A DNA stretch of 7,564 nucleotides, taken from the NCBI GenBank assembly GCA_020058355.1, contig JAGVEG010000003.1, positions 1-7,564 on the forward strand, in the 5' to 3' direction. Position numbers and translations under genes: made by a program. The DNA is from Candidatus Berkelbacteria bacterium. GTDB lineage: Bacteria > Patescibacteriota > UBA1384 > CAILIB01. Within the stretch, counting starts at the first letter, position 1; the number at the start of each line of letters is the position of its first letter. Under the pieces are notes generated by a model. That model did not search any database. It saw only the letters and a program-made list of their open reading frames with translations, and had not been told where the DNA came from. Of this stretch, positions 2,481 to 6,496 are shown piece by piece.

Positions 2481-5400
2481 CTAATAATATTTGGCGACAC
2501 GCCCTTCGTATTGTCCATCATCCTGATCTTCATCGCTAGTCAAAGTTACGAAACCACCTTGGCGCATTCTGGTTAAACTCATGGTGAGGGCGTCGCAGTT
2601 GTGGGTCAGTACACCATTTGCAAAATACCATGGGCACCGATCAACTTTCAGGTTGTATACTTTTTCGACGGGATTTGGCCAGTGCGTTGTTGTGTACGCT
2701 TTTACACTTAGGGGAGCAGAATCGCTGCCGGATTGTTGCAGCGGTATACACACATTTGCACTGGTCACAGATTTTTCCTTCTCGGGTAGCCAAATTTTTT
2801 GCGTTAATCTTCTCTCGGTTAAACTGGCCCCAACAAATTGTACTGCAGTAGTCTTTTCTGGGGGTCCCCAAAAACTCAGATTGGCAACGCACGCAAATAC
2901 GCTCCTTGACAGGCTTCTTTTTGCCTTTAGTGGAGACTTTGTGGAGCGAGTTTTTTGCATGCTTTCTATGCCAGGCAAGCCCTTCCTCAGAGCTATGCCA
3001 CTTAGCTGCGAGTGGTCTGATCTCAGCGAGGTGTTTTTGGAACTGCTCACTTCTGCCAAGCTCGACTCTTTGCTCCCTATGTTCATCCCAATGCTCTTGC
3101 GCAGAAATGCATTCGAGATTCTCCAAACTGTTGTTAAGGCTGTTCCCGTCTTTGTGATGGATGTGGTGGCCTTCTGGGATAGGGCCATTAGCGTGCTCCC
3201 ATATATCCCGATGGAGAAACCCAAACCCGCCAGCGCGTCCAAAATAGTTCCGTAAGTGGTTTCTTTTAGAGTCTGGGTAGCGCCTGTAACGTTTTCCATT
3301 AAATACCACCAACTCAGAATTAGTTTTGCTTTTAGCCATGACGAACCTCGTAGTGTTGATTCGTCTATTATAACATCGTTGCGATTTAGTTGCCCAAGGT
3401 TCTTCCATCCTTTCGTAGTCATTATGGGGTGATTGGCTGTACCTCTTACACCAGCAAACTCGACCACAGGCTTGACCCCCGTACATCTGGACTCCAAAAC
3501 CTTACAGGGACCAAATGGAGTACACACCAATTCCCCCACAGCTACTTCACAGATAGGTTTCTTACTCCCATCAGCCATAGTAATCAGTGTATCGCCAACC
3601 AAGCATAAATCATCGTGGGCTCCAGATGGAAAGGAGCTCACCTGCTCCACCAACTCTTCAGCCCACCGGGTCTCTGGCACCCACACAACCCCATCCCTTA
3701 TCATATCAGCTACCGCGCCCAACCGCATTGTCTTATCACCCGTGCCACGGTGTGGAACGAACGGTGTGACGTAAACACCCGCAGCTCTGAACTCCTGGAT
3801 CAGTGGTGCGCCGTTGGCTTTCTGCTCGATGATGAATGAGTCTGGCTGCCAGTAGTCATACTCCTGCCGGCACTTGTCTTTCAGGTCCGGGAACTCCGCC
3901 CTGAAGTTCAATGAGTTCAGCAAGATGATCTCGTTCCGGTTGGTGGTCTCATTGAACCACACCCCCCATGTTGTCAAGGCGTTAAAGTCCGAGCGCTTCT
4001 TTGCCTCGACTGCAGCGTCAAGCGCCATGATTATGAACTCACAATTGGGTGGGGTTTCCTTCTTCCATATCTTGAACCATTCTTTAACCACGATGCCGCT
4101 GTCAGCGTTGGTCGGGTTCTGCTGGTACTGAGCGTTCCATTGGAACAGGGGCATGGACGCTTTCGTGCGTTTGAGTGAGTCCAACGTCCACTGTTCTGGC
4201 CAGAGGGATTTTTCTTCCGGTGTACCCTCGTTCAGGATGGCCGGGAACTCAAACAGTTCGTACTGGTCTGCTTGCTTGTTTAGCGCGCCGTCTTTGAGTA
4301 AACGGGCTGTGAGGTCCAGCTGCGACCAGCGGGTGTTATGGCTAACTACCCCGTTGGCGATAAAGTTTTCCGTACCTTCCACTTGTATATCAAACACATC
4401 CTCTTGCTCAGAATCAAGGGTTATGCTCAGAATCTCGTCTAGAGTGGGTCTCAATGTACTCAATGGCCCTTTGCAATACGTCGATGCTGTTGCGGTCTTT
4501 GACGATAAGATTGCACGGGTTACAGAGTAGCGCTCGGACTTTCCCTGTTTGGTGGCAGTGGTCGACAGCCAGTTTATGGTTTTTCCAACCCTTTGGTGTA
4601 TTACCTTCGTGAGGTTCCTCACGACAGATAGCACACCGTCCTTCTTGGGCTGTGTACATAGCAAGGTATTGCTCTTGGTCGATTCCGTATCGAGCTTTGA
4701 GGTGGGACTGCCGTCGTTTGGCTGGGCAGTATACTTGGTCACCTCTGGCGAGGCGTTTCTGTAAAAATATCTTGCCAGCGCAGGGAGAGCAGTGCCCATT
4801 AGACTGAACCGGTCTCTCACACCCTTCTGTCGGGCAAACCAGCCCTTTCCATTTCCCGTGGTGGCCCATTGGTAGATAGGGGGCGTCTGGGTGCTTTTTA
4901 TGGTAGCTCTGTCGGGCGAAGCATGCGTTGCATAAACCTTGCCTAGTTTTGGCCTTAGATAAGTTTGTACAATTTTCTGTAAGGCATTGGTAGTCTTGTT
5001 TAGTAGGGGGTGTCCACCCAGCTTCTTTCTTAACTGCAAACGCCGCAATCTGGCACCCTCTACACATACCCCGCACAGTTGTGGCTCGGGATAGTTTTTC
5101 GCAGCCTTCATTGATACAAGTGACATGCCGGGTTTCAGGTCTTTGATTTTGATCCAAGTTTCTACTCCGTTGAGGTCTACTAACAGCGGATGCCGTTCAT
5201 TCCCACGGAGTATATTACCTGATTTCATCACCAGTGTATATACACGATCTATCCCTTGGTTTTTCCAATTAAGGACTTTAGCGGGTCGGAGTAGGCCCCT
5301 CTCGTAACTGGCCACCATATCCCCAGGCCTGATATCCCGTAATCTCTTTGTTGCACCATTGGCCATAGTAATCTCAGTGCCCCCAACCAAACAATGGATC

Positions 5401-6056
5401 ACCGCTATTCTGCCACCAGGCATGAGACGGGTTCGCGCTCCGTAGGTGAACCATTCATACACCTTATCGAAAACCTCATAGTTTCCGTTAATGACTGCAG
5501 ACTCTGAAAACGGGTCATCAATCAGCAAAAGGTGGCTGCCCCGGCCACTCAAGGCACCCCCAACTCCGCAGGCGAACGCTTCGCCACCGTGGTTGGTGTT
5601 CCATTTACCCGCAGCTTTCGCATCAGCAGCGACACTCACATCAGGGAATATTTCTTTGTACTCATCAGACTGCATGAGGTTTCGGACTTTGCGAAGAAAG
5701 TCCACTGCAAGGTCAGCTGTGTGGGATGCGATAATGATTTTATGAGTCGGGTTATTCCCTATATACCACGCTGGAAAATATGTGGAAACAGCCATAGATT
5801 TCCCGAAGCGTGGTGGGCAATTTACGAGTATTCGATCTCGTTCACCCATCTCAACGTCTTCGAGCAGCTCATAGAGCTTGTGCAGGTGAGTGCCCATCTT
5901 GTAGTCGGGCTGCATATGCATGACGAATGCGTGCAGGGACTCCTGGCATATCTTGACGCGTTTACGGGTGTCGAGCTCCTCCAACAGCTCAAGCGTTCTG
6001 AGCATGTCTTCGTGAGTCATCCCCTGCATCATGCGGGCCAGGTCATCGCGGTTCAT
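2481..6056 (-). CDS. terL: Terminase large subunit, interrupted by two inteins (precursor of 1191 aa, about 502 aa after splicing)
   Basis: This is the ATP-driven DNA packaging motor and nuclease that docks on the portal. The N-terminal ATPase has Walker A CPPRFGKS (residues 80-87), Walker B LLLIDDP (176-182) and a coupling motif that would read GGRIAVIH/TRW once intein 1 (222-574) is removed. The C-terminal RNase H-like nuclease shows a first Asp in IIMALD (D680), an acidic FIIEQ (E744) and the last cluster HDDL/CDA (D815, D816, D1155), split by intein 2 (818-1153). Removing both inteins leaves 502 residues, the normal size for a terminase large subunit, and restores both motifs. The start ATG overlaps the TGA of the upstream protease-like gene (ATGA); its own Shine-Dalgarno is weak, so coupling is likely. 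The gene ends 8 nt before the portal start. Function depends on both inteins splicing, which the sequence supports but does not prove. Confidence 0.95.
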   Translation of the reverse strand: MNRDDLARMMQGMTHEDMLRTLELLEELDTRKRVKICQESLHAFVMHMQPDYKMGTHLHKLYELLEDVEMGERDRILVNCPPRFGKSMAVSTYFPAWYIGNNPTHKIIIASHTADLAVDFLRKVRNLMQSDEYKEIFPDVSVAADAKAAGKWNTNHGGEAFACGVGGALSGRGSHLLLIDDPFSESAVINGNYEVFDKVYEWFTYGARTRLMPGGRIAVIHCLVGGTEITMANGATKRLRDIRPGDMVASYERGLLRPAKVLNWKNQGIDRVYTLVMKSGNILRGNERHPLLVDLNGVETWIKIKDLKPGMSLVSMKAAKNYPEPQLCGVCVEGARLRRLQLRKKLGGHPLLNKTTNALQKIVQTYLRPKLGKVYATHASPDRATIKSTQTPPIYQWATTGNGKGWFARQKGVRDRFSLMGTALPALARYFYRNASPEVTKYTAQPNDGSPTSKLDTESTKSNTLLCTQPKKDGVLSVVRNLTKVIHQRVGKTINWLSTTATKQGKSERYSVTRAILSSKTATASTYCKGPLSTLRPTLDEILSITLDSEQEDVFDIQVEGTENFIANGVVSHNTRWSQLDLTARLLKDGALNKQADQYELFEFPAILNEGTPEEKSLWPEQWTLDSLKRTKASMPLFQWNAQYQQNPTNADSGIVVKEWFKIWKKETPPNCEFIIMALDAAVEAKKRSDFNALTTWGVWFNETTNRNEIILLNSLNFRAEFPDLKDKCRQEYDYWQPDSFIIEQKANGAPLIQEFRAAGVYVTPFVPHRGTGDKTMRLGAVADMIRDGVVWVPETRWAEELVEQVSSFPSGAHDDLCLVGDTLITMADGSKKPICEVAVGELVCTPFGPCKVLESRCTGVKPVVEFAGVRGTANHPIMTTKGWKNLGQLNRNDVIIDESTLRGSSWLKAKLILSWWYLMENVTGATQTLKETTYGTILDALAGLGFSIGIYGSTLMALSQKATTSITKTGTALTTVWRISNAFLRKSIGMNIGSKESSLAEVSSSKNTSLRSDHSQLSGIALRKGLPGIESMQKTRSTKSPLKAKRSLSRSVFACVANLSFWGPPEKTTAVQFVGASLTERRLTQKIWLPEKEKSVTSANVCIPLQQSGSDSAPLSVKAYTTTHWPNPVEKVYNLKVDRCPWYFANGVLTHNCDALTMSLTRMRQGGFVTLTSDEDQDDGQYEGRVAKYY
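2641..3339 (-). CDS. HNH homing endonuclease nested out of frame in intein 2
   Basis: The 232-aa protein has an HNH domain of the HNH_3 kind: LHRDIWEHANGPIPEGHHIH (42-61) followed by HKDGNSLNNSLENLE (62-76). The central motif has H58/H59, H61/H62, D64, N69/N70 and N74. The C-terminal part carries two zinc ribbon-like motifs, C149-x2-C152...C165-x3-C169 and C191-x2-C194...C208-x3-C212, probably for DNA binding. The ATG at 3339 is chosen over the upstream in-frame ATG at 3486: it has GAGG 6 nt before it, a TATAAT box further up, and the sequence before it translates to nothing domain-like. The frame is shifted by the same phase relative to terL as the other nested nuclease. The last nine codons overprint splicing block F (VYNLKVD). 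The inferred role is intein 2 homing into empty terL alleles. Confidence 0.92.
   Translation of the reverse strand: MAKSKTNSELVVFNGKRYRRYPDSKRNHLRNYFGRAGGFGFLHRDIWEHANGPIPEGHHIHHKDGNSLNNSLENLECISAQEHWDEHREQRVELGRSEQFQKHLAEIRPLAAKWHSSEEGLAWHRKHAKNSLHKVSTKGKKKPVKERICVRCQSEFLGTPRKDYCSTICWGQFNREKINAKNLATREGKICDQCKCVYTAATIRQRFCSPKCKSVHNNALAKSRRKSIQPES
3340..3349 (-). promoter_or_regulatory. Shine-Dalgarno site of the nested HNH gene
   Basis: The minus strand reads GAGGTTCGTCATG: GAGG (3349-3346) stands 6 nt before the ATG at 3339. In the terL frame the same bases encode LRGSSW of intein 2. The site decides the start and argues for independent translation of the nuclease. Confidence 0.7.
3367..3397 (-). 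promoter_or_regulatory. Candidate internal promoter for the nested HNH gene
   Basis: A perfect TATAAT (3372-3367, minus strand) lies 27 nt upstream of the HNH ATG. A weak -35-like TTGGGC (3397-3392) is 19 bp further up. Predicted transcription would start near 3360 and give a leader of about 20 nt carrying the GAGG site. The -35 match and spacing are poor, so this is a candidate only, but the -10, the Shine-Dalgarno site and the ATG are arranged as in a compact independent gene inside intein coding sequence. Confidence 0.5.
4414..5157 (-). CDS. Endonuclease VII-type homing endonuclease nested out of frame in intein 1
   Basis: The 247-aa protein carries a C-terminal His-Me finger domain of the endonuclease VII family: YGIDQEQYLAMYTAQEGRC (residues 157-175), zinc ligands C175-x2-C178 and C212-x2-C215, and the catalytic-type motif LAVDHCH (196-202) followed by TGKVRALLC. 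The N-terminal half has three tandem Cys4 units: C14/C19/C32/C35, C58/C63/C76/C79 and C108/C113/C123/C126. These are probably zinc-stabilised DNA-binding modules. The frame starts at the third base of an intein codon (TerL T300). Start TTG is chosen because GGAG lies 7 nt upstream and no better start precedes the first Cys repeat. It ends (TGA) just before splicing block F, so it fills the linker. The first 15 or so codons overprint Hint-domain sequence. The inferred role is to cleave intein-free terL and drive intein 1 homing. Confidence 0.9.
   Translation of the reverse strand: MDQNQRPETRHVTCINEGCEKLSRATTVRGMCRGCQIAAFAVKKEAGWTPPTKQDYQCLTENCTNLSKAKTRQGLCNACFARQSYHKKHPDAPYLPMGHHGKWKGLVCPTEGCERPVQSNGHCSPCAGKIFLQKRLARGDQVYCPAKRRQSHLKARYGIDQEQYLAMYTAQEGRCAICREEPHEGNTPKGWKNHKLAVDHCHQTGKVRALLCNPCNLIVKDRNSIDVLQRAIEYIETHSRRDSEHNP
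5158..5168 (-). promoter_or_regulatory. Shine-Dalgarno site deciding a TTG start for the nested endonuclease VII-like gene
   Basis: On the minus strand the sequence reads GGAGTAGAAACTTG. GGAG (5168-5165) lies 7 nt before TTG (5157-5155), a near-ideal distance. It sits inside intein 1 coding sequence between block B and the following strand, where terL itself needs no ribosome binding site. Confidence 0.7.
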
Positions 6057-6496
6057 TCAGTACCCAGTGGCCTGAGGGTATCTACTTCGCTGCCTGTGTA
6101 GATGTCAAACTGTGAAGCGATTTTAACTGCCTGCTCTGCTGTAGCCCCGAATGCCATAGCCCCATCTGCATGATCCGCACCTGAACCTGTGGAAAACCGA
6201 GGGACGTCCACAAAAACAAACTCATAGCTTGCCATGGCGTAATACACCTGCTTACCAGCGCATACCAGCATGACTCGGAAGTTATCTCCTACCTGGGGCT
6301 TTTTTGCTGGGTCCCGTTCACCAAGGAACCATTCCTTCCATCGTTCAACTTCGAACGCATTACCTGAACACCCACCAATGGCATCGAGACCCTTGTATGT
6401 GCACCTGAACATCTTGGTGGTACGTACTGGGGTCGTGCCAAATGTACGGAGTTTGTCTGCGGCTAAGGTAGTGCCGTCCCATGCAATGGTTGTTAT
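6053..6496 (-). CDS. HslV/proteasome-beta-like Ntn-hydrolase, apparent ATA start
   Basis: The 147-aa protein begins MTTIAWDGTTLAADKLRTFG and resembles a compact HslV/proteasome beta subunit. Thr2 would become the N-terminal nucleophile after Met removal. D14 (AAD) and K28 (TTK) sit where the family has its Asp and Lys. GSGADHADGAM (104-114) and AVKIASQFDIYTG (123-135) match the C-terminal GSG and IYT-type elements. It is shorter than HslV (about 170-180 aa). No ATG, GTG or TTG lies between the upstream in-frame stop and the conserved N-terminus; ATA at 6496 fits best, with AGGAG 6 nt upstream and a 4-nt ATAA overlap with the preceding gene. The ATG at 6412 would delete the nucleophile and Lys. 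Such proteins occur in phage head modules; a role in capsid maturation or protein turnover is inference. Confidence 0.8.
   Translation of the reverse strand: MTTIAWDGTTLAADKLRTFGTTPVRTTKMFRCTYKGLDAIGGCSGNAFEVERWKEWFLGERDPAKKPQVGDNFRVMLVCAGKQVYYAMASYEFVFVDVPRFSTGSGADHADGAMAFGATAEQAVKIASQFDIYTGSEVDTLRPLGTE

Follow-up and report, generated by a model that had tools for sequence, protein, structure and literature searches.

Ordinary inteins carry their nucleases in frame, and the nuclease open reading frames (ORFs) of group I introns can overlap the ribozyme. In fractured genes, free-standing nuclease genes reportedly lie between the halves of split inteins. The closest precedent found in the literature for a nuclease gene nested in another frame is the ShiLan element, in which an HNH endonuclease lies out of frame within an insertion of a phage DNA methylase, as described in the relevant passages of Arsenault, Gosselin and Gogarten (2025, PMC11855218). 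The stretch considered here (the window) comprises 7,564 nucleotides of contig JAGVEG010000003.1 from a Candidatus Berkelbacteria assembly; it corresponds to IMGVR_UViG_2830711996_000001, whose parent assembly totals 803 kb in 115 contigs. It contains terL, the gene of the terminase large subunit, with two inteins, each of them overprinted by a putative homing endonuclease gene (HEG1 and HEG2). Very probably these are mini-inteins that carry shifted-frame homing endonuclease genes having their own start and ribosome-binding site (RBS) motif, which would be translated separately and home into intein-free terL.

The terL frame and the nuclease genes nested in its inteins

Positions 2481..6056 of the minus strand form a single terL ORF of 1191 aa without any internal stop, which matches the terminase large subunit family of PHROGs (phrog_38, 2e-80) and the Pfam domains Intein_splicing (2.7e-18), Vint, Terminase_6N and Terminase_6C. 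Its exteins lie at 5394-6056, 3606-4334 and 2484-2597, and excision of both inteins, computed from the ORF, gives a TerL of 502 aa. ORF, Pfam and PHROGs therefore agree with the preliminary description of this DNA, made from the sequence alone, which had proposed a single terL gene, two inteins and a 502-aa product. Intein 1 (353 aa; 4335..5393, minus strand; residues 222-574 of the precursor) extends from C1 to VSHN/T, the slash marking the junction, inside the TerL ATPase domain; it is recognized by PF14890 and by the intein_Nterm and intein_Cterm profiles and has a predicted Hint fold. Its junctions (Q/CMTGDT...HN/TRW) are identical in the phage Phlyer, and its insertion site (site 1) is the one called TerL6-f in mycobacteriophage naming in the relevant passages of PMC5050341. 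Intein 2 (336 aa; 2598..3605, minus strand; residues 818-1153) extends from C1 to LTHN/C, interrupts the HDDL/CDA motif of the TerL nuclease domain and matches Vint (PF14623); its insertion site is also occupied in another locus, L028. The elements show a Hint-fold splicing domain, an N-terminal Cys, a block B His and a C-terminal HN followed by C, S or T, and are inserted in frame in a conserved gene (terminase exteins) that exists without intein, the protein P0018 having the site-1 junction empty. C1, N65 and H68 are invariant among 12 aligned inteins, and block B reads NxxH where TxxH is more usual. In the AlphaFold model of intein 1 (36 input sequences), the splicing halves reach a predicted local distance difference test (pLDDT) score of 85-98 by block and match Hint folds in the PDB, and the linker blocks score about 29-70, mostly <50.

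In agreement with the preliminary description, the Pfam scan of the terL frame detects no in-frame nuclease domain in either intein, and a complete nuclease gene lies on the same strand in another frame of each, EndoVII-type in intein 1 and HNH-type in intein 2. HEG1 (4414..5157, minus strand; 247 aa from a TTG start) occupies the -1 frame of intein 1 and matches PF02945 (1e-20) and phrog_307 (2e-27). HEG2 (2641..3339, minus strand; 232 aa from an ATG), which has a Cys-rich C-terminus and is open upstream to 3486, occupies the -1 frame of intein 2 and matches PF13392 (8.5e-17) and phrog_15471 (1e-24). The two genes thus share one relative frame (-1 / +2). HEG1 is an EndoVII (His-Me finger) nuclease by PF02945 and the motif DHxH...LLCNxCN, whose residues D199, H200, H202, L210-N213, C215 and N216 are invariant in 38 sequences, and HEG2 is an HNH_3 nuclease by PF13392 and the motif HHxDxxxxNN, whose residues H61, H62, D64, N69 and N70 are invariant in 5. 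The HEG1 model (38 input sequences) has a mean pLDDT of 89.4 and a predicted template modelling score of 0.56, and the profile match of HEG1 to T4 EndoVII is clear (1e-6).

The start of HEG1 is preceded, 7 nt 5' of the TTG, by the Shine-Dalgarno (SD) motif GGAG (5165..5168, minus strand), which is formed by Gly-Val codons of the intein; its position is kept across relatives, which strongly prefer the GGA codon. An SD-like GAGG (3346..3349, minus strand) lies 6 nt 5' of the ATG of HEG2. This ATG at 3339 is most likely the true start according to the HNH_3 alignment; the automatic choice was the ATG at 3486, which likewise has a GGAG nearby. The distance from the end of the gene to the end of its intein is 79 nt for HEG1 and 43 nt for HEG2; both genes end within the C-terminal splicing region, where the preliminary description had placed their ends. 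Read in the intein frame, the intein-1 linker (4467..5099, minus strand) appears as a stop-free passenger of HEG1, predicted to be disordered and with an amino acid identity close to the value found for the third frame. The intein frame is free of stops along both HEG1 and HEG2, whereas the third frame has 20 along HEG1 and 23 along HEG2. When the synonymous codons of HEG1 were redrawn with the protein kept, the intein frame acquired a mean of 6.5 stops and was free of them in 0/200 draws, so that the dual open frames of the window are not due to chance.

As to its surroundings, terL has as neighbour a portal gene at 109-2472 (phrog_1216), and a small ORF directly upstream (6053-6412, minus strand) matches a phage 'peptidase HslV family' PHROG (phrog_1040, 2e-20).

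Recurrence of the layout in phage terL genes

All searches used terL-derived seeds. A whole-protein search gave 530 relatives of 0.55-1.75x the length of the window protein, and in the best 120 of these, the window's own included, Pfam assigns neither EndoVII nor HNH_3 in frame; homologues with the nuclease fused in frame, which the preliminary description had named as the contrary case, thus number 0 of the best 120 of 530. Viral contigs were scanned with an alignment of the intein N-terminal half, which is blind to the nuclease (best 80 of 359 matches used), and with an EndoVII nuclease alignment (best 80 of at least 588 matches used), and a scan of bacterial and archaeal genomes gave 13 matches, 4 of them at site 1. 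The 177 loci gave 164 ORFs and 120 distinct site-1 intein DNAs, 5 of which come from L001-L008, 62 from the intein-based viral scan, 49 from the nuclease-based scan only and 4 from genomes. The latter four are records of Mycolicibacterium vanbaalenii (L165), Nonomuraea roseoviolacea (L166), a Geobacteraceae metagenome-assembled genome (MAG) and an Eremiobacterota MAG, the inteins of L165 and L166 presumably sitting in prophages. Ten of the 177 loci were dropped, as one splicing-half match was missing (L040, L079, L101, L113, L169, L170, L173, L175-L177), and L171, L172 and L174 were excluded by a score below the cut. Among the dropped loci, L040 and L101 (contig ends), L113 (unreadable bases) and L079 (terL over several frames) all have EndoVII in the -1 frame.

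In 120/120 distinct site-1 inteins, an EndoVII ORF is found in the same (-1) frame (profile E 8e-45 to 5e-106), the open stretch of the nuclease frame being 155-264 codons vs at most 25-93 codons for the longest stretch of the third frame. Out-of-frame EndoVII is the sole nuclease-bearing state seen at site 1. The site-1 mini-inteins P0051 (151 aa) and P0072 (172 aa), too short for a nuclease, may represent the nuclease-free stage of the cycle. Two loci deserve separate mention. The first intein residues of L104, which was retained in the 120, are extein-like at nt 1221-1240 ('TRWGKR' instead of 'CMTGDT'), perhaps through chimeric assembly of intein-bearing and intein-free alleles. In L079 (nt 2861-5242), terL runs across several frames around an open EndoVII frame, a state that might reflect a poor assembly or a decaying gene.

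The layout also occurs at other TerL sites with two further nuclease families. At the second site, the catalytic-Asp motif near the TerL C-terminus, HNH_3 is nested in 69 of the best 80 of 205 loci, in the -1 frame in 69/69 (58 distinct), and its hosts include unlike terminases, such as those of Tetrasphaera phage TJE1, Acinetobacter phage Highwayman and a Rhodobacteraceae phage. The third family, phrog_3377, for which all 73 matches were considered, is nested in 30/73 loci, in the +1 frame in 30/30 (28 distinct), at three further TerL positions as judged by the post-intein residues (IIDDP, GVG, SEQ); the other 43/73 were checked solely for a terL-like ORF (3 matches). The covering ORFs number 94 distinct ones (65 + 29); among 31 of them picked by hand, 23 matched Intein_splicing, 18 Terminase_6N and 7 Terminase_3. 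Pairs of nested nucleases like that of the window, which had been taken as a peculiarity, recur as EndoVII with HNH_3 (L013, L028) or with phrog_3377 (L014, L086). Altogether, the search of viral and metagenome terL inteins that had been recommended finds the shifted-frame layout in about 200 distinct loci, with an overlap of about 200 aa. The view that the layout is new or very rare has thus to be abandoned, all the more since an HNH gene concealed out of frame, within a methylase and not an intein, was already published (passages of PMC11855218). In-frame LAGLIDADG-like motifs were recognized by eye at two other TerL sites (L008, L033, L088; L063, L116, L129), where the alternative-frame stretch never exceeds 95 codons, and likewise by eye in inteins of other genes, themselves named by eye (ribonucleotide reductase in L171 and L174, DnaB in L172). 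The terminase P0076 (1498 aa) apparently has three inteins, one of them with an in-frame LAGLIDADG Pfam domain.

A blastn search of terL against named phages gave no match; the protein mode found named relatives. The tblastn matches of HEG1 lie inside terminase-annotated genes of Gordonia phages and cluster B mycobacteriophages. The -1 arrangement was read in Phlyer, Nordenberg, Angelicage, Vincenzo and phi1_186018, and Chandler gives a HEG1 match at coordinates identical to Phlyer's. The Phlyer record marks the intein and that of Vincenzo a 'homing endonuclease in intein' without separate gene. As none of the terL records of named phages that were read annotates a nuclease gene at the nested position, intein mobility is probably underestimated.

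Eleven of the HNH_3 loci show no nesting: L239 is cut by a contig end, L214 and L236 are unclear, and in eight (L223, L224, L231-L235, L244; about four lineages, namely L223, L224, the L231 group and L244) a free-standing gene lies beside the terL ORF. In L223, L224, L231 and L244 it abuts or overlaps the terL 3' end, where no intein is present; L232-L235 were assigned by blast only. Because these relatives stand alone next to terL, they suggest that the nested HNH_3 derives from a free-standing ancestor beside this gene.

The same flanking genes could also mean that the nuclease is a packaging or recombination helper merely located in a terL intein, and not a homing enzyme. The EndoVII and HNH families do include phage DNA-processing (packaging/resolution) enzymes, and HNH proteins encoded beside terL are said to be packaging factors. 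However, the site-1 nuclease is found with the intein, and is not inside terL where the site is empty (P0018) or the intein short (P0051, P0072). Moreover, nuclease identity exceeds extein identity by >0.2 in 232/5050 pairs (101 of 120 loci), a gap that, together with the empty site and the two mini-inteins, weakly suggests transfer. A helper role of this kind is thus considered unlikely.

Internal start and selection on both frames

The start of the nuclease is aligned at one position of the intein in 120/120 site-1 inteins, where the base preceding an invariant Trp codon (TGG) creates an NTG. The resulting start codons are ATG in 104, GTG in 15, TTG in 1 (the window) and CTG in 0, whereas the same reading of 1937 control extein Trp codons gives 398 ATG, 888 GTG, 352 CTG and 299 TTG. 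The SD is supplied by the Gly codon located four codons upstream of the Trp, and at least 4 bases of SD are present at 114/120 site-1 starts vs 167/1937 controls. Among 77 representatives sharing <70% identity, the ATG-making base is A in 65/77, where extein codon usage predicts 26.1 (P 6e-22) and the non-overlapped codons of the intein itself predict 41.6 (P 2e-9). The SD-giving Gly codon is GGA in 59/75, the corresponding predictions being 10.3 (P 9e-39) and 13.8 (P 5e-32), respectively. The over-use of GGA and of the ATG-making A at the SD and start of the nuclease indicates that synonymous codon choices of the intein serve the nuclease. A mere composition effect was considered and rejected: compared with the intein's own free codons, the ATG-base effect shrinks yet persists. 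Judging from codon usage, selection at site 1 favours the nuclease start and SD over the codons that the intein would otherwise use. The preliminary description had proposed that the nuclease is independent of splicing, and this is borne out as far as the start is concerned, which looks independent (aligned start codon, SD).

The nuclease might alternatively be made as a fusion to the N-terminal half of the intein through programmed -1 ribosomal frameshifting, which would fit the -1 frame of EndoVII and HNH_3 and an intein that is open on both sides. This mechanism is nevertheless very unlikely: a simple X XXY YYZ heptamer is found near the nuclease start in 1/77 representatives vs 25/559 control extein windows, the start codon and SD appear selected, and the phrog_3377 genes, although in the +1 frame, have an ATG with SD in 28/28 distinct loci (random NTG 42/384).

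The overlap in the 120 site-1 inteins amounts to 23,035 codons, among which no stop occurs in the intein frame, compared with 1,781 in the third frame. If the synonymous codons of the nuclease were redrawn, an intein would on average contain 3.3 intein-frame stops, and about 4/77 inteins would stay open; a shuffle of the nuclease's own codons would yield 1.7 stops, with about 13-14/77 open, whereas 77/77 are observed open. Substitutions were analysed in 94 pairs of 75-97% identity. Outside the overlap they peak at intein position 3, the differences at the three codon positions being 0.153/0.110/0.335 in the N-half and 0.070/0.056/0.338 in the C-half; inside it they peak at nuclease position 3 (0.131/0.076/0.284 in nuclease phase), and the switch of phase coincides with the two ends of the nuclease. 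The ratio of nonsynonymous to synonymous substitution rates (dN/dS), whose comparison between frames had been called for, is 0.076 (NN/SN), or 0.164 by NS/SS (few sites), for the EndoVII nuclease and 0.35 (NN/NS), or 0.76 by SN/SS (few sites), for the intein frame; it is 0.132 for the HNH_3 nuclease and 0.130 for that of phrog_3377. At 60-70% nucleotide identity, protein identity is 63% for the nuclease, 37% for the intein-frame linker and 34% for the meaningless third frame. By these measures, strong purifying selection acts on the nuclease frame (dN/dS about 0.08-0.13), and the intein-frame linker is, as far as substitutions tell, a stop-free passenger selected for openness and hardly for sequence. 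Both frames being open beyond chance and both selected, the arrangement qualifies as an overlapping (overprinted) gene pair.

Since ordinary inteins carry the nuclease in frame, a single frameshift in a former in-frame domain could have created the layout and left a non-functional relic. Such decay is, if anything, still less plausible than frameshifting during translation, considering the purifying selection, the selected start and SD, the lack of any in-frame EndoVII or HNH_3 domain in the best 120 of 530 relatives and a nuclease frame that is intact in 120/120, and not routinely broken as the preliminary description had asked to be checked. Finally, one frameshift error can shift a domain into the wrong frame, but a sequencing or assembly error, or a chance open frame, can practically be dismissed, as 120/120 inteins, drawn from numerous assemblies, share the frame, the RefSeq phages Phlyer, Nordenberg, Angelicage and Vincenzo show it too, and the window has two nested sites and a third frame full of stops.

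Proposed lifecycle and comparison with known systems

Taken as a whole, the following lifecycle can be proposed for these inteins. Translation of the single terL mRNA from the terL start would give the precursor, in which the intein halves would fold around the disordered loop and splice out of TerL; this step relies on analogy with gp6 of Chandler, a same-site relative whose intein splices readily in Escherichia coli according to the relevant passages of Kelley et al. (2016, PMC5050341). Translation from the internal start of the same mRNA would give a free nuclease that would cut the intein-free terL of a co-infecting phage, and repair would copy the intein and its nuclease together into the cut gene. 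Such an element could have originated when a nuclease-less intein captured a free-standing, terL-linked nuclease gene. Beyond the window, the balance of evidence tilts towards a distinct class, the 'dual-frame intein', in which His-Me-finger (HNH/EndoVII) nucleases would be overprinted with an internal RBS, LAGLIDADG nucleases being in frame. The class would have had three or more origins in phage terL, each with one fixed frame, from free-standing nucleases that initially stood beside the gene they cut.

Several points weigh against homing by separately translated nucleases. The literature searched gave no expression, cleavage or homing data for nested nucleases. In Foldseek, the HEG1 model matches T4 EndoVII only weakly (E 0.018-0.064; none <0.001), and HEG1 of the window has the sole TTG start among the 120 site-1 inteins. 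An SD of at least 4 bases precedes only 33/58 distinct HNH_3 genes (random NTG 240/2067), a figure for which choosing the best candidate start favours finding an SD. The codon-bias test covers site 1 only and its P values assume independence of 77 loci that are in fact related; in the same way, the pairwise tests reuse related sequences, and the intein-frame dN/dS is based on few doubly synonymous sites. As to transfer, HEG and extein identities correlate (0.71), so that part of the pattern is due to vertical descent, and more rapid evolution of the extein could look like transfer.

If homing by separately translated nucleases is confirmed, dual-frame inteins would make the amount of nuclease independent of splicing and of what becomes of the host protein. 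An intein is generally treated as a single two-domain protein; here a widespread group carries its likely mobility gene in a frame skipped by annotation. These inteins also provide a selected overlapping-gene system in bacterial viruses, in which one frame is essential, the other likely selfish, and the internal start has left a codon-level imprint. The homing question is testable at once, because the laboratory phages Phlyer, Vincenzo, Nordenberg, TJE1 and, by match, Chandler carry the layout.

With canonical inteins that encode an in-frame LAGLIDADG or HNH nuclease, the inteins of the window share the Hint fold, the C1...HN/(C, S or T) ends, the insertion in a conserved motif and a nuclease between the splicing halves; unlike them, they have their nuclease solely in another frame, as a separate gene whose in-frame counterpart is a passenger linker. 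Fractured genes also have the nuclease as its own protein beside the intein, but their host gene is split into two ORFs, whereas terL is one continuous ORF here and two genes overlap. Group I introns likewise nest a nuclease gene with its own start in a self-splicing element; they differ in being RNA elements, for which the host frame need not stay open.

The TerL6-f inteins of cluster B mycobacteriophages resemble intein 1 in gene, junction and intein family, as judged from Phlyer. The relevant passages of PMC5050341 recognize a homing endonuclease for TerL1-b and -c only and, unlike the layout found here, mention no out-of-frame EndoVII for TerL6-f. Neither do the pertinent passages of PMC10448857, PMC3556154, PMC6293099, PMC7468147 and PMC3029335 describe an intein with an out-of-frame nuclease. 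For overlapping reading frames in actinobacteriophages, PMC11855218 cites, in its relevant passages and together with another work, a preprint (Gosselin, Arsenault and Gogarten 2025, bioRxiv 10.1101/2025.01.02.630785) that, judging by its title, deals with 'non-canonical architecture' among actinophage inteins and may overlap the present layout for some of them. The ShiLan element itself resembles the present elements in that the nuclease is concealed in a second frame of an insertion that is itself in frame and free of stops, for which its authors argue homing. According to the same passages of PMC11855218, it has no intein, intron or detectable RBS, whereas the window has a full intein splicing domain around each nuclease gene, and the site-1 inteins show a nuclease start and SD that appear to be selected.

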